From positions 1 to 42,744 of IMG/VR virus record IMGVR_UViG_3300021504_000004: a DNA stretch of 42,744 nucleotides; one strand, given 5' to 3'. Below, in pieces: positions 380 to 39,124 of the stretch. A model generated the notes under the pieces. The model was not told the origin of the DNA and did no database searches. It saw only the letters and a program-made list of their open reading frames with translations. This stretch comes from a virus. The stretch's first letter is position 1; every line of letters starts with the position of its first letter. The position numbers and the translations under genes were made by a program.

Positions 380-430
380 ACAAATAAATGAATAAACATT
401 TGCAGTATAAAATAAAATATTGTAAGTTTA
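380..430 (+). promoter_or_regulatory. Early promoter with operator dyad, copy A
   Basis: The box ACAAATAAATGAATAAA (380-396) is followed by a -33 TTTG (399-402), a 20-base spacer and a -7 element TAAGTTTA (423-430; consensus TAnnTTTG with a changed last base). The layout is the same as at 9281-9331 and 39074-39124. The dyad CAAATA/TATTTG that overlaps the -33 has one changed base here (CATTTG). It should start the operon beginning at 451. Confidence 0.75.
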
Positions 431-450
431 CATCATAAACAAAAAAAACA

Positions 451-705
451 ATGGAAAATTTTGATATTAACCTTTACGGAAAAGACTACTTAATAGATTT
501 TGACTATGAAACAGAAACAGACAATGATTCATTCGATCATGAGTTTGGAACTGAAAATATTAAAGATTATAAATTTATTTCTTCAATTACCATTAATGAA
601 ATATCAGATGAGTATGGAGTTGATGTTACTCATAGATTCAATAAGAAATATGTAGAGGAAATTCTTTTAGTAAAGCATCAAGAAGAAATATTAAAAAGCG
701 AATAA
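451..705 (+). CDS. Small acidic hypothetical protein
   Basis: I do not recognise this 84-residue protein. Its first half is unusually acidic, with many Asp and Glu and few basic residues (for example DFDYETETDND near residues 16-26), while the C-terminal third looks helical with a VxxxLLVK pattern. It is the first gene after promoter copy A, so it should be among the first genes expressed. It overlaps the next gene by one base (TAATG), which implies translational coupling. Small acidic early phage proteins sometimes mimic DNA; here that is only a thought, without a motif to support it. Confidence 0.7.
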   Translation: MENFDINLYGKDYLIDFDYETETDNDSFDHEFGTENIKDYKFISSITINEISDEYGVDVTHRFNKKYVEEILLVKHQEEILKSE

Positions 706-1121
706 TGAACACTTTAGAAATAGTACTAGGAATATTGAAAGATTATCAAGATTTAGAATATGATAGTCTTGATATTCAAGGAATAATGCACATGAGAAAG
801 CAGTTATCTACTCATGGAGTTTTTCTATCAAGTGAATTAGCTCTTGCAAGAAAAGATTGGAAGCAGAAGGAAGCTAATTATGAGATCCTAAAAAATCAAA
901 AAAGAGTTAAATTATTGGATAAAGGAACAACAAAGGCCAACTGGATTGCAAGAGCAAATTTAGAAGCTGAATTGAATGAATCGGTAGAAGCAGAATCGTT
1001 GTATTATGAATTTTACAATATCCTGCAATTCCTTAAAGAAGTTCTATCTGAAATGAATCAAAGAATTGCAATACTTAGAGAAGAATATAAACAGTCCACT
1101 TATGGACAAAAACAAGTATAA
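705..1121 (+). CDS. Coiled-coil hypothetical protein
   Basis: This 138-residue protein appears to be nearly all alpha-helix. Charged heptad-like stretches from about residue 45 to 130 suggest an antiparallel helical hairpin or coiled coil. There is no signal peptide, membrane segment or catalytic motif. It is coupled to the preceding acidic protein by a one-base stop/start overlap, so the two are probably made together from promoter copy A. The function is unknown; a structural or partner-binding role fits the composition. Confidence 0.7.
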   Translation: MNTLEIVLGILKDYQDLEYDSLDIQGIMHMRKQLSTHGVFLSSELALARKDWKQKEANYEILKNQKRVKLLDKGTTKANWIARANLEAELNESVEAESLYYEFYNILQFLKEVLSEMNQRIAILREEYKQSTYGQKQV

Positions 1122-1194
1122 TAGATGGCAATATGAAGCGAATAACAGTGAACAGCAATAAAATTATTTTTTTAAATTTAAAACAATTTACAGT

Positions 1195-1461
1195 ATGGAA
1201 AAAGCAGTTAAAAAATTACTAAGCGAAGTAATAAGTGCGAGTATTGAACAGTATGAACAACATAGAGGTGTTTATGTAAAAGATAGCGAGTGGACTAATG
1301 ATGCAATAGGAAAAGCACTTATGAACACAATGGAAGTGAAATTTAAAACATTAAATTTATTGTATGTTAGCGATATGTTTTGCCAATGCTCTGAAAAAGA
1401 ACCATATACGCATAAAGACGGAATAACTTATTGTAATAAATGTAAACAGGAAATTGTTTAG
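1195..1461 (+). CDS. Small protein with C-terminal zinc ribbon
   Basis: The protein has 88 residues. The first 60 are helical and unrecognised. The tail carries a CxC pair followed by CxxC (CQC near residue 64, CNKC near 81), a spacing compatible with one structural zinc. It follows a 73-base gap without a recognisable promoter, so it is probably read through from upstream. It marks the start of a run of small accessory genes whose intergenic style differs from the structural half of the genome. Confidence 0.65.
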   Translation: MEKAVKKLLSEVISASIEQYEQHRGVYVKDSEWTNDAIGKALMNTMEVKFKTLNLLYVSDMFCQCSEKEPYTHKDGITYCNKCKQEIV

Positions 1462-1482
1462 GGCAATATTAACGCTAAAGAT

Positions 1483-1809
1483 GTGATAAGTAAGAAACAA
1501 TATTTAAAAGCACTAAACATCGTAAAAGAATACGAAAAGCAATTACGTATAGGTAGTGTTGTGCGTAGTACGGAATTAAAAACTGTATTCTTTGATGATA
1601 CTTGGTATGGTGTAACTATTGAAGTTGACGAAATTGATATTAAAAACCAATATGAATTTGCACAGATAGTAGATATTTTACTTACAGAAAAACAACAAGA
1701 AGAATTTACTTGTAATGACACCTCAAGAGAATTTAAAGTACATCACCACCGAATTAAAAAAATGTTTACGTACATAAATAGCAAAAAGAATGTTTGGCGT
1801 AAAAAGTAG
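1483..1809 (+). CDS. Hypothetical protein (GTG start)
   Basis: This 108-residue protein is not recognised. It starts at GTG (1483), since the ATG two bases earlier runs straight into TGA. It begins with a helical, Lys-rich stretch (ISKKQYLKALNIVKEYEKQ) and then appears alpha/beta, ending in a basic tail. The stop codon is followed within ten bases by a long imperfect palindrome (1820-1864). The gene belongs to the accessory block and no function can be assigned. Confidence 0.6.
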   Translation: MISKKQYLKALNIVKEYEKQLRIGSVVRSTELKTVFFDDTWYGVTIEVDEIDIKNQYEFAQIVDILLTEKQQEEFTCNDTSREFKVHHHRIKKMFTYINSKKNVWRKK

Positions 1810-1819
1810 TATTACGCAC

Positions 1820-1864
1820 AACACCGATCTATAAATCGTTTTAATGATTTTATAAATCGCTGTT
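1820..1864 (+). repeat. Imperfect inverted repeat after an accessory gene
   Basis: Sixteen-base arms (1820-1835 and 1849-1864) pair at 14 of 16 positions around a 13-base loop. There is no run of T after the 3' arm, so it does not look like a normal intrinsic terminator. The preceding words ATTACGCACAA recur just before 5355, next to another palindrome. It may be a recombination footprint or an RNA-stabilising hairpin. Confidence 0.6.
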
Positions 1865-1892
1865 ATGAATAACAAATTGAAATAATCACGAC

Positions 1893-2369
1893 ATGATTAA
1901 ACACAACGGTAAAATATGTATAGAAAAGGATTGTACTGGACTTCTATTTGCTAAAAAACTTTGTAAATACCATTACAGCAAAAAGAACTTTAAACCTCTT
2001 AAACAGGCTAAAATTAAGCCAAAGGCAAAAAAGATAAAGTTTAATGATTTTGGATTTGATACCCAATTAGAAATGTTTCAACATTTATGGTTGAGTGAAA
2101 TGCGAGAAACTGGTTCTGTAACCTGTAAAATATCAGGAAAAGACATAACTAGATTTAATGGTACTCAAAAGTTCTTAAATTGCTTTGCCCATATTCTACC
2201 AAAAGGAATGTTTGGTAAATTCAAATTGAATCCTGAAAATATGATGTTAGTTCATCCTGACGTGCATCATTTACTAGATCATTGTACAGAAGAAGACAGA
2301 GAAAAGCATCCTTCTTATGATTGGTATAAATTTTACGAAAAACAAAGTTATTTAAAATCAATATATTAG
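1893..2369 (+). CDS. HNH-type endonuclease with N-terminal zinc finger
   Basis: The 158-residue protein has two parts. Residues 9-27 hold C9, C14, C24 and H27, a small zinc finger joined by a Lys-rich linker. Residues 78-130 hold an HNH-like core: CKISGKDI, then FAHILPKG with H100, then LNPENMMLV, and finally a His cluster at 121-130. HNH nucleases of this kind in phages act in packaging, recombination (lambda NinG style) or homing. Placement among early accessory genes, away from the terminase, favours recombination or homing. The family is fairly sure; the substrate is unknown. Confidence 0.7.
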   Translation: MIKHNGKICIEKDCTGLLFAKKLCKYHYSKKNFKPLKQAKIKPKAKKIKFNDFGFDTQLEMFQHLWLSEMRETGSVTCKISGKDITRFNGTQKFLNCFAHILPKGMFGKFKLNPENMMLVHPDVHHLLDHCTEEDREKHPSYDWYKFYEKQSYLKSIY

Positions 2370-2371
2370 AA

Positions 2372-2581
2372 ATGGCAAAGAAAAAAGGTAAAATAACCAA
2401 AGGTAACTTTGTGATTAAATTCAAAAAAGGATATTATATTGAAAACAAGGATTGGACTGACAAAACAATAGTATTTCATCATGACATTAAAAAGGCTAAG
2501 GTATTCACTTACAAGGAACACGCAGAAAGCTTTGATGGTTATACTTTGAAAACTTGGGACACCGAAATAGTTGAGTTATGA
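2372..2581 (+). CDS. Small basic hypothetical protein
   Basis: This 69-residue protein begins with a strongly basic N-terminus (MAKKKGKITKGN) followed by what look like short beta strands. It lies two bases behind the HNH nuclease and overlaps the next gene by four bases (ATGA), so it is part of one translationally coupled group. Its basic end could bind nucleic acid. No family was recognised. Confidence 0.65.
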   Translation: MAKKKGKITKGNFVIKFKKGYYIENKDWTDKTIVFHHDIKKAKVFTYKEHAESFDGYTLKTWDTEIVEL

Positions 2582-2784
2582 AAAGCGCATTAATAAATGA
2601 CAGGTTTAGATTGATTTATATTTTGTCCTTTCTTCTATTCATTCTAGGATTAACAGTTTGTGCAATAGTGTATGAGCATAACAATTCTGAAAAGGCAAAG
2701 AAAGAGTATCAGGAAATGATTCAAAAAGAGCATAAAAAATTAAAAACCATAGAATTCACAAATAAGCTTTTAGATAAAAAATAA
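2578..2784 (+). CDS. Small single-pass membrane protein
   Basis: The 68-residue protein has a short basic N-terminus, one clear transmembrane helix at about residues 12-32 (YILSFLLFILGLTVCAIV) and a charged, coiled-coil-like C-terminal tail rich in Lys and Glu. The topology is probably N-in with the tail outside, by analogy with type II anchors. It overlaps the preceding gene by ATGA. Early phage membrane proteins of this size are often involved in superinfection exclusion or host takeover, which is inference only. Confidence 0.7.
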   Translation: MKSALINDRFRLIYILSFLLFILGLTVCAIVYEHNNSEKAKKEYQEMIQKEHKKLKTIEFTNKLLDKK

Positions 2785-2839
2785 AACGACTAATAGGGAA
2801 GAAATTAACAATAGATATTAACACTTTAGGAAAATAGAT

Positions 2840-2977
2840 ATGACATTAAAAGAAAAATTATCATTTATTTATCGATCAGTATTTGTAATGATTTCTATCT
2901 CTATTATTGTATATGGAATAATATCGAATATTGATAAGGTAGAAAGGTTTATTTATTCATTGATAAATATTTTATAA
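2840..2977 (+). CDS. Very small membrane protein (45 aa)
   Basis: A 45-codon frame starts at ATG 2840 and stops one base before the next gene. The middle of the peptide (about residues 10-30, ending IISISIIVYGIIS) is a strong transmembrane candidate. Spacing to the next gene and the second membrane protein in a row support that it is real. It is short, so confidence is moderate, and its role is unknown. Confidence 0.5.
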   Translation: MTLKEKLSFIYRSVFVMISISIIVYGIISNIDKVERFIYSLINIL

Positions 2978-2978
2978 A

Positions 2979-3272
2979 ATGGCAAAGATTGAATTAAGAA
3001 AACAGAAGGAAATTAAAGATGTTCTTGGTCTTTGGATGCTAAGTCGAATTACAAGATCAATAGAATTATATCTTAGTTCAGCAGGAGATATTTCAGAGGA
3101 CTTTATACATGAGAAAGGTTATAAGCCACTTTTGAAAATACAGGATATTAAAAAGAGAAATTGCAGAATAGTTTTACAGGTAATCTCTTTTGAAGAAAAT
3201 GTTTATACAGTAGCTTTTTACAAGATTGAAGTACTAAAACCAAAAGAAAATAGAAATCAGCCATTGCCCTAG
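2979..3272 (+). CDS. Hypothetical protein
   Basis: The 97-residue protein has a basic, helical first half and a beta-rich second half that ends in Pro-rich NRNQPLP. I see no catalytic or binding motif. It starts one base after the stop of the small membrane protein, so the two are coupled. A roughly 100-base gap with only a 17-codon ATG frame follows. Confidence 0.65.
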   Translation: MAKIELRKQKEIKDVLGLWMLSRITRSIELYLSSAGDISEDFIHEKGYKPLLKIQDIKKRNCRIVLQVISFEENVYTVAFYKIEVLKPKENRNQPLP

Positions 3273-3374
3273 TAGTAGTTCTTTCAATAGCTCTATTATA
3301 ATACATCCAAAATGTATTGGTAAAATGCACAGAGCAAGTCAGACTAGGTATGGTTGGTTTCATAAAAATATAAA

Positions 3375-3821
3375 ATGAGTAGAATAAGAGATTATAAAGG
3401 GAGTAAAAAATGGTTGGAATTAATTGGTTCTGATATTGTAAAATTAAAATCGAAAACAATTAAGGAGTTTGTTAAAGAAATCCATTCTCCAGAAATACAT
3501 TCCAGAGTAAGATCATTTGACGAAATAGAAGGATTATCACAAGATTGGTTAAATGATAGAGTATTCCTAGATGCTGATAGATATTATGATTCTATTGTTA
3601 AAAGAGGTCAAATCAATAATGAAACTACATTTGAAGATTTCATTAACAAAATAGAAGAAGAAAAGAATGAACTAAATGCAGAAAAAGGAAATCATGTTAG
3701 AATAAAACAAGAACTAATTGATATAATTGGAGTATGTGTTGCAATGGGAAAACATTACAGAATAGACATTTCAGGAGAATTTGAGAAGAAAATAATTATA
3801 AACGAAAAACGAAAAGATTAA
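3375..3821 (+). CDS. MazG-like nucleotide pyrophosphohydrolase candidate
   Basis: The 148-residue protein is helical. It carries ExxE at residues 96-99 and ExxD at 113-116, separated by 13 residues, the signature of all-alpha NTP pyrophosphohydrolases (MazG/dUTPase-2 type), where these acids hold magnesium. Such enzymes hydrolyse NTPs or dNTPs to monophosphates and pyrophosphate, and phage copies tune nucleotide pools or lower alarmones. The N-terminal 85 residues are extra and unrecognised. Its stop codon is part of an imperfect hairpin. The call rests on the motif alone. Confidence 0.5.
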   Translation: MSRIRDYKGSKKWLELIGSDIVKLKSKTIKEFVKEIHSPEIHSRVRSFDEIEGLSQDWLNDRVFLDADRYYDSIVKRGQINNETTFEDFINKIEEEKNELNAEKGNHVRIKQELIDIIGVCVAMGKHYRIDISGEFEKKIIINEKRKD

Positions 3822-3846
3822 TGTATTGTGAGTAATGCACTACATT
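3820..3846 (+). repeat. Imperfect hairpin at the MazG-like gene's stop codon
   Basis: AATGTA (3820-3825) pairs with TACATT (3841-3846), and GTG (3828-3830) with CAC (3838-3840), around a seven-base loop and a two-base bulge. The stop codon lies in the 5' arm. A T-rich run is short, so it may be a weak terminator or another of the accessory-block palindromes. Confidence 0.4.
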
Positions 3847-3884
3847 TTAAGAGTTATTAATATTAATAAATTAAATATATAAAG

Positions 3885-4622
3885 ATGAATAAAATTGAAG
3901 TATTACAAAATTGTAAAGTAGAAGGAAACATAATAAAATTACCTGATACACAATTAGACAGAAAAGAGTATTTAGAAGTGAAAAAAGCTCTTGAATTAAT
4001 TGGAGGAAAATGGAAAGGTGGAAAAGTATTTGGTTTTGTTTTTAAAGCAGACCCTACCGACTTACTTAATCAAATTGCAAATGGAGAAAACAGAAATCTA
4101 AAAAAGGAATTTCAGTTTTTTGCGACACCAAGTGATTTAGCAGAAAAGTTAGTTTATTATGCTGACTTAAAAAACCACGATACTATTTTAGAGCCAAGTG
4201 CGGGGCAAGGAGCAATTATTGAACACATAAATAAACAGTGTGATGTTGTGCCTGAATGCTTTGAGTTGATGGAAACAAACAAGATGATTTTGAATAAAAC
4301 TGATTTGAAATTTGATTTAATTGGAGATGACTTTTTGAAAAGCAACGGTAAAGAATACTCTAAAATTATTGCAAACCCACCATTTTCAAAAAACCAAGAT
4401 ATTACTCACGTTTATAAAATGTTTGAAAAATTGGCTCGTGGTGGTAGAATTGTAACAATAATGAGCAAACATTGGCAAAATTCCACAAACAAAAAAGAAA
4501 CTCAATTTAGAGAATTTTTAGAAGAATTAAACGCTGAAATAACAGATATTAATTCAGGCGAATTTAAAGAAAGTGGAACTTCAATTGCTACTGTAATAGT
4601 TACTATTGAAAAACCATTGTAG
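3885..4622 (+). CDS. N6-adenine DNA methyltransferase
   Basis: The 245-residue protein has the S-adenosylmethionine-binding motif I at residues 103-110 (EPSAGQGA), an acidic motif II near E127, and the catalytic motif NPPF at 164-167, which marks amino-methyltransferases acting on adenine (less often cytosine) in DNA. Residues 20-55 form a small helical N-terminal part. There is no large target recognition domain and no restriction partner nearby, so it is a solitary methylase. In phages these protect the genome from host restriction or change regulation. Specificity cannot be read from sequence. Confidence 0.85.
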   Translation: MNKIEVLQNCKVEGNIIKLPDTQLDRKEYLEVKKALELIGGKWKGGKVFGFVFKADPTDLLNQIANGENRNLKKEFQFFATPSDLAEKLVYYADLKNHDTILEPSAGQGAIIEHINKQCDVVPECFELMETNKMILNKTDLKFDLIGDDFLKSNGKEYSKIIANPPFSKNQDITHVYKMFEKLARGGRIVTIMSKHWQNSTNKKETQFREFLEELNAEITDINSGEFKESGTSIATVIVTIEKPL

Positions 4623-4641
4623 TATTGTCGGTAACGGCTAA

Positions 4642-4657
4642 GGGTCTGTTTTGACCC
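4642..4657 (+). repeat. Short hairpin after the methyltransferase
   Basis: GGGTC (4642-4646) pairs with GACCC (4653-4657) around a six-base TGTTTT loop. Only weakly T-rich sequence follows. The words GTAACGG just upstream recur after the gene ending at 7684. It could be a weak terminator. Confidence 0.4.
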
Positions 4658-4685
4658 GATTTAATAACGAAATAATTTTATAAAA

Positions 4686-4823
4686 ATGGAAAAAATTAAA
4701 TGTATAACATTCGACAAAAAAGCACAGGATAATTTGCCACAGCACATTAAGGATAAAATGAAAGCTGACCGAGACAAAGCTCATAAAGAAATGGATAGTA
4801 AGGGTTTAAATTTAACTAAATAA
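4686..4823 (+). CDS. Small charged protein (45 aa)
   Basis: A 45-codon frame with a proper ATG lies between the methyltransferase and the next gene, ending eight bases before the latter. The peptide is Lys-rich and amphipathic, with a likely helix at residues 18-38. Good spacing and a sensible composition argue that it is translated. No function is known. Confidence 0.5.
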   Translation: MEKIKCITFDKKAQDNLPQHIKDKMKADRDKAHKEMDSKGLNLTK

Positions 4824-4831
4824 ATAGAAGA

Positions 4832-5293
4832 ATGAAAGTATTAGAAAAGATTAAAGAGATTTGTGATGGTATAGAATACAGCAGACATATACCAAAAGAA
4901 GCCGAAGAATTAGCAAGGCAGCATAATATTGTAATTATAGTTGGCGGTTCTGATGATTTAATGTATTGCTATGGTGCGAAAAGTTATTTAACAGAATATT
5001 GCGAACACGGAGAGGGTTGGGACGGTTGCGACCTTGCAAAAGATGCAAGCGAAGAACAACTGCAAAAAGAAGCGAAACAATTAGGATTAAAGATTTTTTG
5101 GTGCGGAACTATTGCCGAAACAGGCGAAACAATTAAAGATTACGATACTAATAAAAGTGGAGCTTTTTCTTATACTGTAAATGATAATATTGAAGCTTTG
5201 GATTTTAAAGTATTGGAAAGAGGAGATGCTAATGATGTATATTGTACGGGCAAGATTATACAATTACCTAATAATTTTAGGATTTACCCGTAG
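4832..5293 (+). CDS. Hypothetical protein, Cys-containing alpha/beta
   Basis: The 153-residue protein starts with a helix-rich segment (residues 1-30), continues with VVIIVGG-like beta strands and has scattered Cys (residues around 50-95) that do not form a standard zinc knuckle. The second half looks beta-rich. It is not recognised. The stop codon is the first part of a long nested palindrome (5291-5361). It belongs to the accessory block. Confidence 0.65.
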   Translation: MKVLEKIKEICDGIEYSRHIPKEAEELARQHNIVIIVGGSDDLMYCYGAKSYLTEYCEHGEGWDGCDLAKDASEEQLQKEAKQLGLKIFWCGTIAETGETIKDYDTNKSGAFSYTVNDNIEALDFKVLERGDANDVYCTGKIIQLPNNFRIYP

Positions 5294-5361: not shown

Positions 5362-5401
5362 AATGCAATTATTTTTAGCTTGTGTTAACCACGGTTTTAT
5401 T

Positions 5402-5773: not shown

Positions 5774-5797
5774 ATTGTGGTTAATGAATAGAATAAT

Positions 5798-5824: not shown

Positions 5825-5886
5825 TGGTGTTAGTTTACGTTATGTTCTCTAACATACAAAATAAACTAATATAATTGTAAAAAGAC

Positions 5887-5917: not shown

Positions 5918-5958
5918 TATAACAAAACAACGAAGTTCTGTAACTAAATAAAAAGAAG

Positions 5959-6201: not shown

Positions 6202-6203
6202 TT

Positions 6204-8907: not shown

Positions 8908-9090
8908 ATGCACAATACAAGAAAATATACAAAATCTATAAGATTAGATTCTGAAACTATCGATCTAATAGCTTACTTAGATTCGATGAGTATTAGTTGG
9001 CAAAAACTCGTAGTTGATAACATTAAGGATATCTTAAAATGCAAGGCAGAGGAATTTAACTACATTGATGAAAGCGACTATCCTTTTTGA
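8908..9090 (+). CDS. Ribbon-helix-helix-like small protein
   Basis: The 60-residue protein starts with a basic strand (TRKYTKSIRLD) followed by two helices (SETIDLIAYLDSM and SWQKLVVDNIKDIL), the order expected for a ribbon-helix-helix DNA-binding fold. The length also fits. The acidic end (EESDYPF-like) is unusual. It is coupled to the next gene by TGATG. It may be an early regulator; no operator is known for it. Confidence 0.5.
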   Translation: MHNTRKYTKSIRLDSETIDLIAYLDSMSISWQKLVVDNIKDILKCKAEEFNYIDESDYPF

Positions 9091-9296
9091 TGGAAGTTCT
9101 TCTAAGTGAAATATTGCCAAATTTAAAGAAGTTCAGTTTTAGGGATTCTTACATAACAGGAACTATTAAGAATGAAGGAGTAAGATTTGTTATTAGGCCG
9201 CATTGGAAATTAGAGATGCACTATGTAGCAAGTAGTTATGCAGAAATGTTTTTAATTTTAGAAATAATCCACAATATATCACAAATAAATGAATAA
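9090..9296 (+). CDS. Small hypothetical protein
   Basis: The 68-residue protein starts at ATG 9090 in the stop codon of the preceding gene (TGATG). It appears to be a beta sheet followed by a helix (SYAEMFLILEIIHNI). The last codons and the stop overlap promoter copy B, whose conserved box begins at 9281, so the 3' end of this gene doubles as regulatory DNA. Function unknown. Confidence 0.6.
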   Translation: MEVLLSEILPNLKKFSFRDSYITGTIKNEGVRFVIRPHWKLEMHYVASSYAEMFLILEIIHNISQINE

Positions 9297-9331
9297 ATAT
9301 TTGTAGGACAAAATAAAACATTGTACATTTA
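9281..9331 (+). promoter_or_regulatory. Early promoter with operator dyad, copy B
   Basis: ACAAATAAATGAATAAA (9281-9297), -33 TTTG (9300-9303), a 20-base spacer and TACATTTA (9324-9331) repeat copy A almost exactly. The dyad CAAATA-N10-TATTTG is perfect here and covers the -33. It drives the operon starting with the RadC-type gene at 9359. Confidence 0.75.
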
Positions 9332-14757: not shown

Positions 14758-14790
14758 TTTGATAGTTTTTTGAGTTAGTGCTTATATTTG
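14758..14790 (+). promoter_or_regulatory. Second promoter just before a terminator
   Basis: TTTG (14758-14761), a 21-base spacer and TATATTTG (14783-14790) form a good promoter. Transcription would start near 14796 and meet the terminator within about ten bases, so most transcripts should be very short unless antitermination occurs. Confidence 0.55.
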
Positions 14791-14803
14791 ATGTTTATTT
14801 GGG

Positions 14804-14831
14804 AAAGAGCTACAATGTTAGCTCTTTTTTT
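14804..14831 (+). terminator. Strong intrinsic terminator
   Basis: AAAGAGCTA (14804-14812) pairs perfectly with TAGCTCTTT (14819-14827) around a six-base loop, followed by more T. It separates the terminase side from the XRE gene. Confidence 0.8.
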
Positions 14832-14853
14832 ATGGAATTAAATAAAGTAAATA

Positions 14854-14894
14854 CTTGCTTTATGTTGCATAATTGCTATATTTGTCCAGACAAA
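14854..14894 (+). promoter_or_regulatory. Promoter and operator dyad of the XRE gene
   Basis: CTTG (14854-14857), a 19-base spacer and TATATTTG (14877-14884) form the promoter. A perfect dyad TTTGTC-CA-GACAAA (14881-14894) overlaps the -7 element and the start site, ten bases before the ATG. This is the place expected for autoregulation by the XRE protein. Confidence 0.7.
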
Positions 14895-14903
14895 CAAAGT
14901 ATT

Positions 14904-15089
14904 ATGGAATTGAGTAAATTGAAAGGATTAAGAAAATCAAAGGAGGTCAGTATAAAAGAACTCTCAAGAATAACAGGATTAAATAGAGATCGAATATCGC
15001 TAATCGAAAGAGGTCTTGTAAATCCTTCTTTTGAATCAGTCAAGAAAATTATTGAAGCATTAGGGAGTAGAATTGAAATTATATTTTAA
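14904..15089 (+). CDS. XRE-family helix-turn-helix regulator
   Basis: The 61-residue protein starts at ATG 14904, after the promoter at 14854-14884; a longer frame from GTG 14778 begins upstream of that promoter and runs through a terminator. It is an almost pure XRE domain: SIKELSRITGLNRDRISLIERG (residues 16-37, with the recognition helix at about 27-35) and NPSFESVKKIIEALG. It probably binds the dyad at 14881-14894 and controls its own gene and perhaps the structural operon behind it. Confidence 0.85.
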   Translation: MELSKLKGLRKSKEVSIKELSRITGLNRDRISLIERGLVNPSFESVKKIIEALGSRIEIIF

Positions 15090-15289
15090 TGTTAGTAGCT
15101 AAAAGAACAGACGAATTAACAATTGGTAATACATTTACCTTTGATATTGATTTAAAGACAAGAAAACTCTTTGAATTCATTAGGTACAGTAAAAATAAAA
15201 CAGTAATAAATTGCATTGATAAGGAAGCTTCTAAGCCTTGTGAAATTCACATAAAAAATCAAAAGTTTGTTTTTGTATTAAAAAAATAA
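15089..15289 (+). CDS. Small basic hypothetical protein coupled to the regulator
   Basis: The 66-residue protein overlaps the stop codon of the XRE gene by one base (TAATG). It is basic and looks like a five-stranded small beta protein (NTFTFDID, KTVINCID, CEIHIKN, FVFVLKK). It could be a partner or antagonist of the regulator; the layout resembles two-gene control or toxin-antitoxin pairs, but no toxin family is recognised. Its last codons overlap the promoter of the structural operon. Confidence 0.6.
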   Translation: MLVAKRTDELTIGNTFTFDIDLKTRKLFEFIRYSKNKTVINCIDKEASKPCEIHIKNQKFVFVLKK

Positions 15290-15297
15290 TACATTTG
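15266..15297 (+). promoter_or_regulatory. Main promoter of the structural operon
   Basis: TTTG (15266-15269), a 20-base spacer and TACATTTG (15290-15297) match the consensus fully. Transcription should start near 15303, 37 bases before the first structural gene. The conserved early box is absent, so this promoter is under other control. Confidence 0.75.
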
Positions 15298-21663: not shown

Positions 21664-22124
21664 TGAATGCGTTTGATAAAGCTAGGAATAAGATAAAAGA
21701 ATTAGAAGCTTTGATAAATCCAACTATGCAGAAGGTTTTTGATAAGTATGATTATGTTATCCATGATTATCAAACAGATGAACAGTTATTTAAAAAGGGA
21801 GAAAGAAGCGATGGAAGTATTATAAGAAATATACGAACTGGTGAAGGCTACACCCCTTATACAATAAAACTGAAAAAACAGAAAGGGCAACCTACAAATA
21901 GGGTTACATGGAAAGACACAGGCCGTTTACATAAAGAAATAAAGGTTATAGCAAATGATGAGTTTGTTGTAATAAAAACAAGTGTTCCTTATGCTGATAA
22001 GTTATTTAAAAAGTACGGAGATGATGTTTTGGGAATACAAAAGGAATTCCTAGAAAAATTCTTAGATTTGTACATATTACCAACCTTAAAAGAAGAATTT
22101 GATGATACAATTGCAAAATCCTAA
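21663..22124 (+). CDS. Head-tail completion protein candidate
   Basis: The 153-residue protein starts at ATG 21663, overlapping the upstream stop codon by one base. An in-frame TTG at 21615 is unlikely. It has a helical N-terminus, then GYTPYTIKLKKQKGQP and RVTWKDTGRLHKEIKV, then a strand and helix ending. The DTGRLHKEI segment recalls gp10-like (HK97) neck proteins, where a similar word is common. Such proteins seal the neck. Confidence is moderate. Confidence 0.6.
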   Translation: MNAFDKARNKIKELEALINPTMQKVFDKYDYVIHDYQTDEQLFKKGERSDGSIIRNIRTGEGYTPYTIKLKKQKGQPTNRVTWKDTGRLHKEIKVIANDEFVVIKTSVPYADKLFKKYGDDVLGIQKEFLEKFLDLYILPTLKEEFDDTIAKS

Positions 22125-22833
22125 TGTACCAGAACCAACTAGAGCTATTGAAATTGATAAGGCAATTTATGAGCTACAATTGGTTTTAGATGTTAATCTA
22201 GATTGGCTTACACATGACTATGCAAGATGTTACAGGCATTTAGATAGGAAGGAACATAAATTATATTTTCCAGAAATTTACATTGGTGGAGATAATAAGT
22301 CTTACCATTCAGTAACTCCAGACAATGACAAAAAGGGATTGTGCTTTTTTGTAGTTGGAAAGGAAAGGATTGATGATTTCGAGAGATCACATAATTATCT
22401 CAAGTATGATGTTGGGATTGTATTTTGGGTAAATCTTGAAAAGATAGATTCAGATCTTTTAAAAACAGAATACTTTAGACAGAATCTAATTAGTGATGCA
22501 AGGGAAATTTTAACCAGAAGATCAGGAGGTTTATCATTCAATTTAAAGATTAAAGAAGCGGTTACAGAATTCAAAGAGGTTTATAAAGAATTTGACTTGA
22601 GCGAAAAGGAGAATTATTCTAAAGCTCCTTATGCTGCGTTCAGAATTAATTGTGAGTTTGTAATGTCAGAGAATTGCGGAGATAATTTCTTCGATCCTGC
22701 AAAGGCTTTACTTCAGAATGTTTCAGAAAGTGATATCCTAGATATATTGTTACCTACAATAGATTTTTCGATTGATGCTAACTTTAATTCATTAACAGAA
22801 CAACAAAAGACAGATTTAATTAGTAAATTGTAA
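22102..22833 (+). CDS. Neck or tail-terminator region protein
   Basis: The 243-residue protein starts at ATG 22102, 23 bases inside the preceding gene. The first 160 residues look alpha/beta with an LYFPEIYIGG strand and a long helix, and the end is an acidic helix (ESDILDILLPTI). By position, between the completion protein and the tail chaperones, a tail-terminator or connector role is likely. No sequence motif confirms it. Confidence 0.6.
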   Translation: MIQLQNPNVPEPTRAIEIDKAIYELQLVLDVNLDWLTHDYARCYRHLDRKEHKLYFPEIYIGGDNKSYHSVTPDNDKKGLCFFVVGKERIDDFERSHNYLKYDVGIVFWVNLEKIDSDLLKTEYFRQNLISDAREILTRRSGGLSFNLKIKEAVTEFKEVYKEFDLSEKENYSKAPYAAFRINCEFVMSENCGDNFFDPAKALLQNVSESDILDILLPTIDFSIDANFNSLTEQQKTDLISKL

Positions 22834-26800: not shown

Positions 26801-27720
26801 ATTCAGACGAAAGAAAAAAGATTAAAAATGAAGAAATAAGAGAATTAGAAAGCTTAGATAAAGGATATCAAAAAACATTATCGGACAACGATAAGCAAAG
26901 GGAGCAAGATAGAATAGAAAATTGGAAAGAATTTTATGATAGCTATAAGCAAGTATTGGATCTTGTAGTTGATAAATTAGCAGAGGTTTATGAAAAACAG
27001 CTTACTTTATCAAAAGAGAATTTAACAAAACAAGAAGCTCAAGTTGAAAAACAAAGAGTAAGAGCTGAAGAAGGCAAGGCTAACACTTTATTATTTGAGC
27101 AAAAAGAATTAGCAAAAAGAGAAAAACAGATTATTGCTTCAGAAAAAAGACTAGAAAGGATAAGGAAAGCAAAGGCTTTGTACACATCTTACAATGCAAA
27201 TCTTCAGAAAAAAGATACTACTTCAGGACAGGCACTTGCAGCAGCATTAAGAGATTTTGGAATTATAGAAGCTATTTCAAAAGGATTTAAAGATGGAGGT
27301 TATACTGGAGATGGTGGAATTAGTGAAGTTGCAGGAGTTACGCACGGAAAAGAATTTGTATTAGATGCTCCTACAACAAAAGGATTAGGATTAAAAGGCA
27401 AGAGCATGAGCTATGCAAGGGAAAAGTTATTAAATAGCTCGAATCCTTACATGAATACAAAACAGATAGCATTAACAGGATTAAAGCTTGCAGATCAAAA
27501 AGACAGATTCATAAAAGAAACAAATAGTAATATTAATATTCTCGGGCTAGATGAACTTAAAAATGAATTTAGGGAATTAAAGGAATGGCAAATGTCAGTT
27601 CCTATTCAAAAGGTAGATGTTCAGAAAATCACAAGTGATATACTTGATTTTGTATCTGAAACAAGAGAAGGAAATATGACTAAAAGACAAACTTACAGAG
27701 TTCATAAAAAAAGAATCTAA
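23875..27720 (+). CDS. Tail tape measure protein
   Basis: The 1281-residue protein starts at ATG 23875, inside the end of the chaperone extension; an in-frame TTG at 23845 is less likely. It begins with coiled coils (about 1-215), then the PhageMin/TP901-type conserved domain (about 230-500; MREFEQANANLASVLGKT, ALNFAKLSTALPIVG), hydrophobic helices near 530-620, and long coiled coils to about 1130. It sets tail length and helps DNA pass the envelope. About 1.28 kb of residues predicts a tail near 190 nm at the usual 0.15 nm per residue. Confidence 0.93.
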   Translation: MANAILNYKDIIGEDDSFKEIFKRIGELEGFILKTKNNISGALDIVSPKDTKQITTLIAKVEKLKQSEKDLSDIVKGAKKAKKESADLTKAEANAEKALVQTKAEKVKLQKHETDLIIKNNKEKDRQLALSKKQALATEKQALKLKALQQPYKKLSDRLLVATKAYQNVAAAEGIASTKAIKYKKALDRLDVRLKTIDANAGRFQRNVGNYAKGMQSLSNIAIAGGATLGVAGVFKLFKEGIGTMREFEQANANLASVLGKTRQEIKPLTDSAKVLGSETEWSATQVTSLQDAYSRLGFSQNEILNSQAATLQGATALQADLGATAELTGGTLRAYGEDATQAQRYTDVLAKSTSTTALNFAKLSTALPIVGKTADVAGVSFERTAAQLGVLSNNNIDASSSGTALRNIYIELSNKGLTYEQAMNKIRNSTDKLKTANDLFGKKSATVALTLADSTEKVNELEEAYNNAGGTAKKMADEQLKTLEGSIKLLKSAWEGFILSLNEGDNVTEKLAIAIKWLSENLVDVLKAVWSLIKVFAVYKTTMFAIAKAQKIAAIATAIYTKATTRATTATKLFNKANKGTILGVIITLLYAAYEAFQFFSSGAEDATKKSDDYNESLEEGNDLLKERKFIAIEELFLQEGINLNNLVKSHEKLNNVLKSRFGFDKDALELLKERIELRKAELIQNKLEADEQIPKLGEVIQTLNGKRKATVEDIRRSRESNKKAFDEEIVQNNKFLSIINERLKKSENANSSIKETTGLIEKQTKKISDLQKQIKEAKDEDQIISLNIKLQKAQKELQRLNNLYRFSAEERLKIETDLITNQTAKSIELEKQKAKKIIEQINSNVAISTEQKEKLVDKENAVLNKKIKEIQIAEEERVFKIKFEYEQSVRDLELDRTQTQIEEIEEAIEKSTKLNNAAEFDNLKQLEGNKYNLKKKSLQDQYRAELDFFDKRAAAELLLLEKGSDEYKKKQKENSDERKKIKNEEIRELESLDKGYQKTLSDNDKQREQDRIENWKEFYDSYKQVLDLVVDKLAEVYEKQLTLSKENLTKQEAQVEKQRVRAEEGKANTLLFEQKELAKREKQIIASEKRLERIRKAKALYTSYNANLQKKDTTSGQALAAALRDFGIIEAISKGFKDGGYTGDGGISEVAGVTHGKEFVLDAPTTKGLGLKGKSMSYAREKLLNSSNPYMNTKQIALTGLKLADQKDRFIKETNSNINILGLDELKNEFRELKEWQMSVPIQKVDVQKITSDILDFVSETREGNMTKRQTYRVHKKRI

Positions 27721-29486
27721 TGGCTAAGATTGTACATAAAAGAAATGGTAATATAATCAAAGCACCTGACGGTTGGCAAGGGCTTGTTGTTAAGAAAGAT
27801 TTCCTCACTAAAAAAGAGGATGATTCTGTTAATATAAATCAATTAATATTTTCTGGAGAAGAAGCTATTAATATTAGAGAAAGGATTTTGAACGGACTTA
27901 CTGGAGGAGTAGGAATTTACGAAGGCGATCCTTATGAAATAGAGATTGGAGAAATCGGAAATCCAGTCTTTAAATTCAAGGGATATCTGGATTATGCAGA
28001 TTCTCCAGAGTTTATAGGAGAAAATAAAGTAAGTGTTTCATTAAAGAAAAGACAAGGCAATGATTGGCTTAATGATGTAGCAGACGGTTTTAGCTTCAGA
28101 TACTTACACGAAATAGGAGTGATAAGCGATTCGGACTTTGTGGAAGTACCTTATGTAATAAACTACATTCCAGATGGAACACAATTGATATTATTAAGCG
28201 TATCTCTTTACATGATGACTAATCAGGTTGTTGATGAGGTTTCAGAAATAGCTAAAACAGTAGGAACGATTATAAACGCTTCGATACCAGTTATAGGAGT
28301 AGGCGCAGGTGTAGGTGCGGTTGCTGTTACGGCATGGGATATTGGGGACTACATAATGGCAGGAATTGAATTGACAATAAGAACAGCAAAATTGATCTTA
28401 TTAACAGTTGCCATCAAGAAGCTTATAGAAGAAATAAGAGACCAATTAATGCCACCAATAAGGCATCATTTAGGAATGAGTATTTATGATCTATTTGAAA
28501 AAGCTTGTACTCATCTCGATATGGAATTTGAAAGTACACTTTTGACAGAGAAAAAAGATTGGGTAATAATACCGTCAAAAGGACACAAAGGAGGGGAAAA
28601 GCCAGATGGTTGGGAAGGATCTTGGCAAGAGTCAGGAGTACCAGAAATGAATGGTCCATTTGATACTTTTGGAGATTTAATAAGAGTGTTTTCTTCAGCC
28701 TTTAATGCTACATATAAAATTACTGGAAATAAGTTCAGGTTTGAGAGAATTGATTTTTGGCATCAACATTCAAATTTTGTTATAGGAGATTTCTTTACGA
28801 ATCAAGAAACATTACTAGATCATCATAAGCCAAACACCGAAGAAATAGTTTCGAACTATTTTATCAAATACAATTTTGATACTCAAGATCAGAATACATT
28901 GAATAATCAACAGGGAACATTGTTTCAGTCTATTTTAGAGCCAAACATAATAAACAATCCAGATTTAGTTAATTTGAAGCATTTACAAGAAATAGACATA
29001 CCTTGTTCAGTAGGGCTTAGAAAAGAAAAGCTTACAAAAGTTGAGGAGATATTTAAAGAATTAGCACAACTTGTTGACACAATTGTAAACACAGGTTATG
29101 CAGGGCAGATTGATTCAAGAGTTGGGTCATTGCTTTTATCAAGTGATTTCTTAACTATTCCGAAATTGGTTGTAATGAAAGGCTCTAAATTAGCAAAGAA
29201 TCAAAGAACATTAGTTGGAGCAGATAAACTTTGGGAGGATCTGCATTCAATTAATAGCTTTTACAATGGGAGTAATCAATGGAATAGATTCGAAGGTGTA
29301 AAAATGCCAATGTGTGAAAAGGATTTCGAGGAGCTTTTAGAATGTGAATTCTGTAAAGATTCAGAAGGAAATGATGCAATGATTGAAAAATTAGAATGGG
29401 AAAGTTATTCTAATACTGCAATTATGGATTACAGAATTAAGAAAAAACATACAAATAATTTAACTTTAAGGAATATTAAAACATGA
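27720..29486 (+). CDS. Distal tail/baseplate protein
   Basis: The 588-residue protein begins at the stop of the tape measure gene (TAATG). By position it corresponds to a distal tail or baseplate hub component. The first 130 residues are beta-rich. A hydrophobic, Gly/Ala-rich stretch (about residues 185-245, ASIPVIGVGAGVGAVAVTAW) could insert in a membrane. Later a domain with SIYDLFEKACTHLDMEFES resembles hub proteins. CEFC occurs near residue 539. Exact role not sure. Confidence 0.6.
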   Translation: MAKIVHKRNGNIIKAPDGWQGLVVKKDFLTKKEDDSVNINQLIFSGEEAINIRERILNGLTGGVGIYEGDPYEIEIGEIGNPVFKFKGYLDYADSPEFIGENKVSVSLKKRQGNDWLNDVADGFSFRYLHEIGVISDSDFVEVPYVINYIPDGTQLILLSVSLYMMTNQVVDEVSEIAKTVGTIINASIPVIGVGAGVGAVAVTAWDIGDYIMAGIELTIRTAKLILLTVAIKKLIEEIRDQLMPPIRHHLGMSIYDLFEKACTHLDMEFESTLLTEKKDWVIIPSKGHKGGEKPDGWEGSWQESGVPEMNGPFDTFGDLIRVFSSAFNATYKITGNKFRFERIDFWHQHSNFVIGDFFTNQETLLDHHKPNTEEIVSNYFIKYNFDTQDQNTLNNQQGTLFQSILEPNIINNPDLVNLKHLQEIDIPCSVGLRKEKLTKVEEIFKELAQLVDTIVNTGYAGQIDSRVGSLLLSSDFLTIPKLVVMKGSKLAKNQRTLVGADKLWEDLHSINSFYNGSNQWNRFEGVKMPMCEKDFEELLECEFCKDSEGNDAMIEKLEWESYSNTAIMDYRIKKKHTNNLTLRNIKT

Positions 29487-34742: not shown

Positions 34743-34743
34743 T

Positions 34744-36387
34744 ATGAAGGTATATGCTGAAGGGTTACAGATAGTTGTAGTGTTGGGAGCAAATGGTCCT
34801 AGCTACATAAATTTTTCAGATGTTGTTTTTATCGAGTATGCTGATTTAGTTCATATAGCTGTATTTGATAATGAAACTAATCATACTTATTTAGATGTAT
34901 GGTCAAATATCACAGATGAAAATGGAGTTCCTTTAGGATCAACATATCAAGAAGTAATTGATGCTTTAAATAAACTTTTAGTAATCGGAGATCCTGGTTT
35001 TTTAGGAACATTCGAGAACTACAATGCTTTAATAGCGGAACACCCAACGGCAGACGTTGGTCAATTAGTGCATTTGATTAATTCTCAAGGAACTCAATGG
35101 TTGCCTTATTCATTTGGAGGTACATTTTATCCAAAAGGTGATTATGTTTGGAATGGTGCAATCTGGAGTTCATCAGTAGATGATATTGCAAATGCTTTAG
35201 ATATATTAAATAATCAAGCACACATACACGATAATAAACCTTTATTAGATGATTTAAAAGTAAGAGATAATTTCATTTTGATTAAAAGTGGAACTGAATT
35301 AGAAGAAGAATTTCCTCCAGTTGGAGGGGTTATAACTTTAACTACCAATATTGAAATAGAAGGATTTGTTGATTCAAATTATCAATTGAATTTAGGTGGA
35401 TATTATATGGTAGGCAAAAATGCTTTTGCAGATAGATTTATATACATAGGGAATTCGGATGCTATAATAGGGCATAAGGGAGGAGTTATAAAAGTATTAA
35501 CTTTAATGGCACCACTTGCAGGAACTAGATTATTCAATTTAGAAGATACACAAGGAAATAGAACTATTCTATTAAGAGATGTGGTGTTAAGTTCATGCGT
35601 TGATATTGGAGTAATAAAAGGATTCAATTTATGTGCGTTAAGTACTATTGATACATTAGAAAATAATAATGGAATCACATTTGAAAATATCAAAAATTTG
35701 TACTTAAATAATATATCATGGAGAAATACTAATTATGGAACATTAGAAAAGTATATTGGAGATTTTGAACTTATTCAAAATATTGGTGGAAAATATCATG
35801 TTGAAGCAGGAGTTACAGGAGTTGATATTTCTGGAATAACATCTATAAAAACAGGGGAATTATTAAACAGTCCATTTACAGGAGATGGAATATACATAAC
35901 TGGAGTACCTAGTGTTGAATGGTTGATAAATTGTTTAGGTGTAGATTCGGAAGGTGATCAATTCAGTAGAGCTTTTCTTTCATACGACAACGGAACTCAA
36001 AACACACCTTTAACACAAAATGTTTGGGATTATTTTGATATGCCAACAGCAACATTAGATTCAAATACATCTCATAGATTTGAGCAAAACCCAATCTATC
36101 CAGACACTTTAATTTATAAAGGATTACATAATGTAAATAATAGAATTGTCATAACAACAGGAGTTAGAAGGATAGGAGGAGGAATTAACACTTATCAAAT
36201 GAGAATTGTTATAGATGGAATTCAAATTGGTAAAACAAAGCAATTTGAACTTGGATCAACAGACACTTCGATAACATTAACCGCAATTCATAATTTCAAA
36301 ACAGATGAACAAATATGGCTTGAAGTTAGAAATATTACTGATAATGATGATATTAGATTATTAACAGCATCTTTAACGATTAAGTAA
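34744..36387 (+). CDS. Tail fibre/receptor-binding protein candidate
   Basis: The 547-residue protein has an N-terminal part (1-110) ending YNALIAEHPTADVGQLVHLIN, a word often seen in tail fibres of Bacteroidota phages as I recall, then a region like a carbohydrate-binding module (about 110-160), a short coiled coil (about 140-180) and a beta-helix-like repeat region (about 190-400). The C-terminal 150 residues look like a beta-sandwich tip. It probably binds the host surface. Confidence 0.6.
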   Translation: MKVYAEGLQIVVVLGANGPSYINFSDVVFIEYADLVHIAVFDNETNHTYLDVWSNITDENGVPLGSTYQEVIDALNKLLVIGDPGFLGTFENYNALIAEHPTADVGQLVHLINSQGTQWLPYSFGGTFYPKGDYVWNGAIWSSSVDDIANALDILNNQAHIHDNKPLLDDLKVRDNFILIKSGTELEEEFPPVGGVITLTTNIEIEGFVDSNYQLNLGGYYMVGKNAFADRFIYIGNSDAIIGHKGGVIKVLTLMAPLAGTRLFNLEDTQGNRTILLRDVVLSSCVDIGVIKGFNLCALSTIDTLENNNGITFENIKNLYLNNISWRNTNYGTLEKYIGDFELIQNIGGKYHVEAGVTGVDISGITSIKTGELLNSPFTGDGIYITGVPSVEWLINCLGVDSEGDQFSRAFLSYDNGTQNTPLTQNVWDYFDMPTATLDSNTSHRFEQNPIYPDTLIYKGLHNVNNRIVITTGVRRIGGGINTYQMRIVIDGIQIGKTKQFELGSTDTSITLTAIHNFKTDEQIWLEVRNITDNDDIRLLTASLTIK

Positions 36388-36388
36388 A

Positions 36389-36931
36389 ATGATTATACAA
36401 ATAGAAAATAGCAAAATATTAAATAATTTAGATGAGTTAGGAAATATCGAAGACCCTAAACATGGAGATTGTTTTTATATAAAAAGCGAAGTTGATGCTT
36501 ATTCTTTTTATGATTCAAAGAAATCAGTTAATAATGGAGAATGGAAACTAGATAAACATGCAATTCTTTATATTAAATATTATAATCTAAAAGAAGGTTA
36601 CACAGATGTAACAGATTACTATCCTAATATAATTAGAACACCAATTGAAGAAATAAAAGATGCTTACAATAAATACAAATCAGATGGTGTTGAGTATAAT
36701 GATAATTTCAGGGCTGAAATGGTTTTGAAATACAAATTAGGAGAACTGACAGAATCAGCGATATTCGAAATAGAATCAAAATTAAAACTAGTTAGGAATC
36801 TGGTTAAAAGTGGGGATTGGATGACGGCAAATTATGAATTAAGCTTAATTACAATTTCAGGAAGCTATACTCAAGAAATGCACGATGGAATAAATAATTA
36901 CATAACAAATTATATTTCAGAAAATTACTAA
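36389..36931 (+). CDS. Hypothetical protein next to the tail fibre
   Basis: The 180-residue protein begins one base after the fibre gene. The first 60 residues look like a small beta domain. The C-terminal part is helical (EIESKLKLVRNLVKSGDWMTANYEL), rather like fibre-assembly chaperones (gp38-like or Tfa-like in place, not in sequence). Position suggests a fibre chaperone. This is inference. Confidence 0.5.
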   Translation: MIIQIENSKILNNLDELGNIEDPKHGDCFYIKSEVDAYSFYDSKKSVNNGEWKLDKHAILYIKYYNLKEGYTDVTDYYPNIIRTPIEEIKDAYNKYKSDGVEYNDNFRAEMVLKYKLGELTESAIFEIESKLKLVRNLVKSGDWMTANYELSLITISGSYTQEMHDGINNYITNYISENY

Positions 36932-36951
36932 TCGTTTAATATCTATGTATT

Positions 36952-37359
36952 ATGATTACTTTAGGAAATGTTCATATCGAGCTTGTAAAAGGTGGAGTTA
37001 TTCAAAAAGAAAGAGTTTACAATCCATCTAGTAAATGGAGAACATACAAACTATTAAAGTCAATTGATATTGAATTATCTAACGGAATAATAGTACATAT
37101 TCCAGAGGGCTTTGATTGGGATTTGAGTTCAGTTCCAAAATTATTATGGTGCATTTTCCCTCCAGATGGAGATTTTGAAATAGCGGCATTGGTGCATGAT
37201 TACTTGTATAGGAATAAATTGATTTCAAGAAGATTTGCAGATAAAGAAATGTTGACTTGGAGTAATAAAGTAAATTTCTCAAAAAACATGGCTAAAGTTG
37301 ATAATTATTTAAGATATTTAGGTGTAAGATTATTTGGAAAATTTGTTTGGAAAAATTAA
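36952..37359 (+). CDS. DUF1353-family protein
   Basis: The 135-residue protein has the DUF1353 pattern: PEGFDWDLSSVPKLLW, then ALVHDYLYRN, then FADKEML. The family is common in phage lysis or tail regions; its H-D pair and conserved acids look metal-binding, but the function is not established. Here it stands first in the lysis block, five bases before the holin. Confidence 0.8.
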   Translation: MITLGNVHIELVKGGVIQKERVYNPSSKWRTYKLLKSIDIELSNGIIVHIPEGFDWDLSSVPKLLWCIFPPDGDFEIAALVHDYLYRNKLISRRFADKEMLTWSNKVNFSKNMAKVDNYLRYLGVRLFGKFVWKN

Positions 37360-37364
37360 AAGCT

Positions 37365-37868
37365 ATGAAACTAGACTACTCATTTATTATCAAGGTGTTG
37401 ACGGGTTGGTTAGGTAAAATTGGAATCTCAATTGGCGTTTTTGTTGCCCCGATTTCTTCTATGCTTTGGGTAATATTTGCTTTGATTATCTTAGATATGA
37501 TTACTTCAGTAATGAAGCAATGGAAAGAAAAGAAATTAGAAGGAAAGAAATTGCTATTATTTCCGATACCTTTTTATGATGGCGATAGGGAAATTGTTTT
37601 TAGAAGTTCAGAAGCTAAAAAGACAATGATTAAAACATTCCTATACATTACATTTATTTCGGTATGTTATGCGTTACCTTATTCGATTATGGAATTTCAT
37701 ATGTATATGCCGCATATTGCAACAGCCTGTATTGGTTCTGTTGAATTAGTCAGTATTGCAGAAAACAATTCTGTTACAACAAACAACAGCATATTTGTAA
37801 AAATCACTAAAGTTTTAACCAAAAAGCTAAATAGCTATATTTCGGATAAGACACAAAACAATAAATAA
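37365..37868 (+). CDS. Holin, phage_holin_4-like
   Basis: The 167-residue protein starts at ATG 37365; an in-frame start at 37347 would overlap the preceding gene. It has a transmembrane region at about 18-48, the conserved word ILDMITSVMKQWKEKKLEGKK of holin family 4, and a second membrane segment at about 91-108. A third weak one is near 118-131. Holins open the inner membrane to release the endolysin. The next gene is that endolysin. Confidence 0.85.
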   Translation: MKLDYSFIIKVLTGWLGKIGISIGVFVAPISSMLWVIFALIILDMITSVMKQWKEKKLEGKKLLLFPIPFYDGDREIVFRSSEAKKTMIKTFLYITFISVCYALPYSIMEFHMYMPHIATACIGSVELVSIAENNSVTTNNSIFVKITKVLTKKLNSYISDKTQNNK

Positions 37869-37884
37869 CGAAATATAAATAGAC

Positions 37885-38292
37885 ATGAATTATTTTGGAA
37901 TTAAAGAATTTAATACATCAAATGCAGAATTAAAAGAAGAAATTAAAGTTAAGATTATAGAAAACTTCATTAATCCTTTAAATCCAATAAGGATTGCTTT
38001 TGGAAAATTCATCTTCGTAAGATCTGGATATAGACCAGAGCTATACAACAAACAAGTAGGAGGAGGTAAGCATTCGCAACATTTGTTTAAAAGCAAAGGA
38101 GCTTGTGATATTTCGCCAACAAAATCAGGAGTAAAACCAACTAAAGCAGATATGGATTTATTAGAAACTGTATTGATTGAAAGTGGGCAATTTACTCGAA
38201 TAGCAAGATACAAGACATTTTTCCATTGTGATTATAAAGGAAGTATAAGAGCTTTATACAATTCAAAATGGGTTAAAATAAAACTTATATAA
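37885..38292 (+). CDS. Endolysin, peptidase M15-like
   Basis: The 135-residue protein has the M15 zinc site: S64-Q-H66, D75 in GACDI and H114 in FFHCD. Between H66 and D75 there are two more residues than in the classical SxHxxGxAxD form. M15 endolysins cut peptide cross-links of peptidoglycan (D-Ala-D-Ala or L-Ala-D-Glu type). No signal peptide is present, consistent with release through the holin upstream. It shares one base with the next gene. Confidence 0.85.
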   Translation: MNYFGIKEFNTSNAELKEEIKVKIIENFINPLNPIRIAFGKFIFVRSGYRPELYNKQVGGGKHSQHLFKSKGACDISPTKSGVKPTKADMDLLETVLIESGQFTRIARYKTFFHCDYKGSIRALYNSKWVKIKLI

Positions 38293-38987
38293 TGAAAATT
38301 TCCAAAACCAACATTTTACTAGCATCTATAATTATAATTATGTCAATTCTGTATTTAAAGTCTTGTGAAAGCAATTCTTTTAAGTCAGAGTTGATTATTT
38401 CATTGAACGATACATTATCTATCACAAAAGATGAGAAAGGTCGTCAAAAGGCTCAAATAGGAGTTTTAAAATTTGAAAAAGAAAAGGATTTGTTGGAAAT
38501 TAGAACAAAAGACAGTTCTATTATAAAACTTCAGGATATCGTAAAAGATTACAAAGGCAAATTGAAAGCTGCTATAATTCTAGGAAATTCAACAAGTGAT
38601 TTTGGGAGTTCAGAAACAATAGTAATACTTGATACTTTACATTTAAAACAGTTTCCTACGTACAAAACAAGTTGGAATGAAAAGTGGAGTAAAGGAACTA
38701 TAATCGCAAATAAAGACAGCATACATAGAAATATTAGTTTTAAAAACGAATTTGAGATAACATTAGGAAATGTCAGGAATAAACTTTTCAGGAAAAAAGA
38801 GTTTGATGTAATAGTAAAAAATAACAATCAAAATACATATACAGAAGAACTAAGAGCATTTTCTGTTTCGCCAAAATCTAAGAAATTTAATTTAGCTCTT
38901 CAGATCGGGTACGGAATCAATAGCAATTTAATGTTGACTCCATATTTAGGATTCGGATTGTCTTACATAGTATTAGGAATTAAGTAA
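38292..38987 (+). CDS. Spanin-like envelope protein (DUF6808-like)
   Basis: The 231-residue protein has an N-terminal hydrophobic segment (about 8-24) ending in LKSC, which could be a poor lipobox (Lys at -2), a coiled coil (about 45-95), then a beta-rich part and a C-terminal hydrophobic strand region (LALQIGYGINSN ... LGFGLSYIVLGI). This order recalls the DUF6808 proteins in Bacteroidota phages. Placement right after the endolysin fits a spanin role in outer membrane disruption, by inference. Confidence 0.65.
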   Translation: MKISKTNILLASIIIIMSILYLKSCESNSFKSELIISLNDTLSITKDEKGRQKAQIGVLKFEKEKDLLEIRTKDSSIIKLQDIVKDYKGKLKAAIILGNSTSDFGSSETIVILDTLHLKQFPTYKTSWNEKWSKGTIIANKDSIHRNISFKNEFEITLGNVRNKLFRKKEFDVIVKNNNQNTYTEELRAFSVSPKSKKFNLALQIGYGINSNLMLTPYLGFGLSYIVLGIK

Positions 38988-39009
38988 ATTAAACCTTATA
39001 TATAGCATC

Positions 39010-39041
39010 AAACCTCTAGCGTTCTGTTAGAGGTTTTTCTT
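39010..39041 (+). terminator. Terminator of the late operon
   Basis: AAACCTCTA (39010-39018) pairs perfectly with TAGAGGTTT (39028-39036) around a nine-base loop, followed by TTCTT. It ends the structural and lysis transcript. Confidence 0.8.
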
Positions 39042-39073
39042 ATTTAAAATAAGTATAAATAACATATTTTATT

Positions 39074-39124
39074 ACAAATAAATGAATAAATATTTGCAAG
39101 ACAAAATAAAACGTTGTACGTTTG
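39074..39124 (+). promoter_or_regulatory. Early promoter with operator dyad, copy C
   Basis: ACAAATAAATGAATAAA (39074-39090), -33 TTTG (39093-39096), a 20-base spacer and TACGTTTG (39117-39124) form the best copy, with a perfect -7. The dyad CAAATA-N10-TATTTG is perfect. It drives the early block beginning at 39148. Confidence 0.8.

Follow-up and report, generated by a model that had tools for sequence, protein, structure and literature searches.

Repeated −33/−7 promoter copies of bipartite architecture in a Flavobacterium-clade phage and its relatives

What do three closely similar promoter-like sequences, spread over a phage genome, share beyond the signals of a host promoter, and what might read them? 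The window analyzed here, the whole of a 42,744-base virus record, carries three such copies, all on the + strand: copy A at 380–430, copy B at 9281–9331, and copy C at 39074–39124. Each opens with a conserved block (block 1; 380–402, 9281–9303, and 39074–39096) and ends in a −7 box (TAAGTTTA at 423–430, TACATTTA at 9324–9331, and TACGTTTG at 39117–39124); in copy A, a hinge at about 403–408 and a spacer block at 409–422 lie between the two. As the preliminary description had it, the upstream sequence ACAAATAAATGAATAAA is exactly shared at 380–396, 9281–9297, and 39074–39090, a −33 TTTG stands two bases past it (399–402, 9300–9303, and 39093–39096), and in all three copies a spacer of exactly 20 bases leads to TAnnTTT[G/A], starting at 423, 9324, and 39117. 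The copies are 75–77% identical across 105 nt and form the largest repeat family of the window; scored with their own matrix they reach 89–92 bits, against 4.6 bits for the next site in the window and at most 4.1 in shuffled genomes.

Each copy lies 28–35 bases 5′ of an ATG, and the first genes downstream start at 451 (copy A), 9359 (copy B, RadC-like), and 39148 (copy C, HTH_39); block 1 of copy B overlaps the 3′ end of an ORF at 9087–9296. Copies A and C are each preceded by a strong terminator-like hairpin, one of 14 pairs directly upstream of copy A (293–324, + strand) and one of 12 pairs that separates the late operon from copy C (39010–39036, + strand). The earlier view of them as coordinated promoter copies of the Bacteroidota −33/−7 type, placed at the starts of gene blocks, is supported. 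The statement that one precedes each early block holds only in part: the block behind copy B runs through RadC, DUF4494, and YopX, and then both terminase genes. A mobile intergenic repeat or iteron was rejected on the ground that all window copies are −33/−7 pairs, oriented and 28–35 bases before an ATG.

The core of the copies resembles Bacteroidota sigma-ABfr promoters, with TTTG near −33 and a TAnnTTTG-like box near −7 in three of three copies, a spacer of 20, and a start codon 28–35 bases downstream. The last base of the −7 box is A, not G, in copies A and B, and its fourth position is G in copies A and C, copy B conforming at this position to the F. johnsoniae consensus TAHHTTTG (PMC6847099). 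Unlike sigma-ABfr promoters, the window copies carry a long upstream block that does not vary, and their spacer block is conserved within the genome.

CAAATA-N10-TATTTG, which had been read as an operator dyad over the −33, is literally there, perfect in copies B and C and with one change in copy A. Binding of a dimer to this palindrome is nevertheless very improbable: inverted repeats as good or better occur in 22–49% of dinucleotide-shuffled versions of the 52 nt (P = 0.22–0.49), so that AT-rich promoters can be expected to contain such a dyad by chance, the N10 between the arms is invariant in all three copies, the single arm change, in copy A, is uncompensated, and the dyad is missing from G001 and phage 1/32, which are the nearest relatives, as well as from the other relatives. 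On these grounds we reject the dyad as evidence of an operator. One of its arms is an A-rich block and the other the T-rich −33 itself, and the dyad is one event, copied three times. Because the N10 is perfectly conserved, the conserved unit is the whole block, not two half-sites; in the window, neither direct-repeat half-sites (P = 0.18–0.37) nor inverted ones are significant.

To place the copies among related phages, we used the tail protein at 27720–29486 as query, finding the Flavobacterium psychrophilum phages FpV9/FPSV (49%), as well as tant8-1 (46%), phage 1/32 (46%), and IMG/VR contigs, with G001 the nearest relative (54–63% by protein). An exact search of viral contigs gave no match for the 23-mer and none for a 27-mer spanning hinge and spacer; in genome contigs the 23-mer matched one Anaerovibrio contig lacking a −7 box, which we set aside as a chance match. 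The search proposed in the preliminary description fails when taken literally: the 23-mer is private to the phage of the window, although its architecture is widespread in the relatives. Most relatives carry repeated −33/−7 promoter families of their own, with four copies in FpV9, phage 1/32, G011, G013, and G023, three in G001, G007, G008, G010, and G027, and two in G003, G006, and G009; these families match at 39 or more of 56 positions, compared with at most 34 in shuffled genomes. The scan found no family in G004, G012, G014, and G028, which are larger records without a clear helix-turn-helix (HTH) gene, or in G021, which has an HTH gene, and across genomes the presence of a family goes with that of an HTH gene (Fisher P = 0.001, kinship ignored). 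A 23.7-bit site in G012 has TTTG, the −7 box, and the first transcribed bases in common with the family but not block 1, and was therefore rejected as a member. The families recur across the clade and are private in sequence, the promoters being alike within a genome and different between genomes, even at orthologous positions.

To see which parts of the element are held constant, we aligned 12 families on the −7 box and took the mean within-family identity by position. Identity is 0.85–0.94 from −40 to −21, drops to 0.54 and 0.28 at hinge positions −18 and −17 (flank background, 0.32), and is back up to about 0.77–0.84 from −15 to −1. Over the 12 families the element is bipartite: positions −40 to −19 form one conserved block and the spacer/−7 region another, with a variable hinge between them, and in 11 of the 12 identity is higher in the spacer block than in the hinge (Wilcoxon P = 0.005). 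This bipartite architecture, recurring in the clade, is a better-founded description than the original dyad. Recent duplication alone was rejected: between the two conserved blocks the hinge has drifted to nearly background identity, which speaks against recent copying and for two contacts under constraint. Spacer-block identity is 0.78 within genomes and 0.50 for the orthologous HTH-proximal position in different genomes. While block 1 is partly common to the clade (AAATAAATnAAAAAATGTTTG), the spacer block is private and differs even among phages that infect one host genus, so the host sigma factor alone is no explanation. Agreement within genomes together with difference between them points to a phage-specific reader, which would act alongside the host sigma factor.

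A competing account, which we regard as possible if rather doubtful, needs no phage regulator: the copies would be strong promoters for the host sigma factor, each with an UP-like element rich in AT, and their likeness within a genome would come from duplication, from gene conversion by phage recombination, or from selection for promoter strength. Consistent with this, the A-rich block 1 sits where an UP element bound by alpha-CTD would be expected, a complete −33/−7 pair is there, and the AAATAAATnAAAAAATGTTTG sequence in block 1 is partly common across the clade. AT-rich spacers are also usual in Bacteroidota promoters (PMC7366714). A spacer block conserved within each genome beside a hinge at or near background is, however, not what recent copying or gene conversion would leave; spacer blocks differ among phages of one host genus, and a −33 motif is hardly evident in F. 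johnsoniae promoters (PMC6847099).

In some lineages, the two blocks are inverted copies of each other around a 9-base loop, with arms of 14 bp in FpV9 (P = 0.002) and of 9–11 bp in G011 (P = 0.000–0.04), and with P reaching no better than 0.06–0.12 in G007/G008, all values being uncorrected for the 39 promoters tested. These arms change jointly between lineages, from ATGT/ACAT to AAGT/ACTT. Tant8-1 and G009 instead each have one promoter with a direct repeat (P = 0.003–0.007, likewise uncorrected for 39 promoters).

Which protein might read such a site? The suggestion that the regulator is one of three small HTH proteins of the window is plausible, and synteny singles out one of them, the 78-aa XRE-like protein encoded at 40079–40315 (+ strand), as the best candidate; the other two are not clade-wide. 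In 15 genomes we found, 186–962 bp downstream of a family-type promoter, a small HTH gene (about 77–168 aa), which usually precedes exonuclease/recombination genes. The 40079 start lies 962 bp past copy C, the distance in relatives being 186–624 bp, and the gene has a −7-like box of its own at 40049–40056. The HTH proteins belong to family cl17 in most genomes and to cl57 in the window, G001, and phage 1/32. These two families are weakly related (hhalign probability 16%, E = 0.0015), so the case for the window protein rests on synteny and not on proven homology.

Profile matches and predicted structure both assign the 40079 protein an XRE helix-turn-helix fold. It matches phrog_1373 (E = 2e-7) and HipB (E = 0.002) and scores 17.7 bits against HTH_3, below the 23-bit cut-off. 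Its AlphaFold model, predicted from two sequences with the phage 1/32 homologue left out, has a pLDDT of 85 and resembles XRE proteins with a Foldseek probability near 1, but with E values of 0.004–0.1; the predicted fold is close to HigA2, HipB, and C.Esp1396I. HTH similarity correlates with promoter similarity (r = 0.42, P = 0.001), and with kinship removed the co-evolution signal is not significant (partial Mantel r = 0.21, P = 0.08). In G010 (21822–22283) and G011 (43233–43739), the small HTH protein consists of two HTH domains in tandem, joined in frame.

The reader could instead be another phage protein: the HTH_39 winged-helix protein (39148–39375, + strand), the HTH_3 repressor-like protein (14778–15089, + strand), or a phage factor that redirects the host polymerase. 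One such reader would account for the same conservation; the HTH_39 gene is the first after copy C, and the HTH_3 protein matches phage repressor families. Repeated promoters are widespread in the clade, however, whereas HTH_39 is by similarity common to G001 only and no clade-wide homologue of the HTH_3 protein was found, and we consider these readers unlikely.

The reading we put first, tentatively and at somewhat less than an even chance, is that the early promoters are under a bipartite site read by a phage protein, most likely 40079, that switches the blocks together. The three sites would be early (or delayed-early) promoters of a lytic-type phage of the Flavobacterium clade, at which host RNA polymerase, carrying the Bacteroidota primary sigma factor, would start from the TAnnTTTG-like box. 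The regulatory site would overlap the promoter, combining block 1 (ACAAATAAATGAATAAAYATTTG), a variable hinge of about 6 bases, and the spacer/−7 block (AAAATAAAAYRTTGTA), and the phage-coded protein would bind it at all three promoters. Transcription, binding, and the sign of regulation at these sites are what we infer from the sequence. Since the site covers the whole −33 to −7 region and the 40079 gene lies downstream of copy C, we favor Cro-like negative feedback, that is, early shut-off; activation is the alternative, for which the imperfect −7 boxes, compared with TAHHTTTG, leave room. The cultured relatives have been described as virulent, and tant8-1 and Fpv5 among them as being without lysogeny genes (PMC7077304), making an immunity repressor the less likely role.

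This proposed control parallels several known systems in part. Like the Cro/CI control of early promoters in tailed phages, it has a small HTH gene behind an element-bearing promoter, an element that overlaps the promoter, and several promoters sharing one element; unlike it, the window has no significant palindrome (P = 0.22–0.49) that could serve as a dyad operator and no divergent CI/Cro pair. No integrase was matched among the proteins scanned, which cover the small early ORFs in part. HipB and the C protein C.Esp1396I, which are XRE autoregulators, resemble the 78-aa protein in predicted fold, with a weak sequence match, and differ in that no HipA toxin or restriction-modification partner was recognized beside 40079. 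In mycobacteriophages of cluster A, the repressor reads repeated asymmetric stoperators, with specificities that vary between phages (PMC9283540). The window would share with these the repeated asymmetric sites read by a phage-coded regulator and the phage-dependent specificity; it differs in having only three sites, all of them promoters and none within operons or other transcription units, and no lysogeny genes or integrase were found among its scanned proteins.

Extended to the clade, the proposal becomes more speculative. Each lineage might have a private early-promoter code, a bipartite site overlapping −33 to −7 in 2–4 copies per genome, that co-evolves with a small autoregulating XRE protein able to accept half-sites in inverted order in some lineages and in direct or asymmetric order in others; we consider this possible, with the balance against it. 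If true, such a code would provide natural pairs of small regulators and cognate promoters for Bacteroidota, as well as a natural experiment on how regulators and operators evolve together in phages that lack lysogeny genes. The group includes phages tried against a fish pathogen, and we found no description of its early-promoter control in the literature.

The head gene (15340) has a promoter of a different class, a candidate late promoter of the form TTTG-N20-TACATTTG at 15266–15297 (+ strand) that lies outside the repeated family, which fits an early/late division despite the reach of the copy B block into the terminase genes. In most relatives, a late-promoter-like box, TAAATTTG, is conserved about 70–80 nt upstream of the head gene (cl7); in several it is followed by TCAAGACTTCAAAGGGATAGCGG, and the early block 1 is absent. 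The window sequence at 15290–15297 may be the equivalent of this box.

At the ends of the record, the ORFs at 41916–42744 and 1–247 run off and would not be joined in frame if the record were circularized, which may mean that the record lacks some bases or that its ends are not adjacent. Right before copy A, TATATTTG at 257–264 is followed by the terminator hairpin at 293–324, and this layout (257–324) is, but for a missing CCAC hairpin, that of a conserved short transcription unit that in relatives separates the late operon from the HTH-proximal early promoter. The unit lies at about 19870–19965 in L014, where it has no Rfam match, and has equivalents in G005, G007, G008, tant8-1, G009, G010, G011, and G027. 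It spans about 70–90 nt and consists of TATATTTG, a small hairpin AGRTTTTCCACRAAAYCT, and a strong terminator. Consensus folding gave only the terminator hairpin, the first hairpin being misaligned; read by eye, this first hairpin shows a compensatory change in G010.
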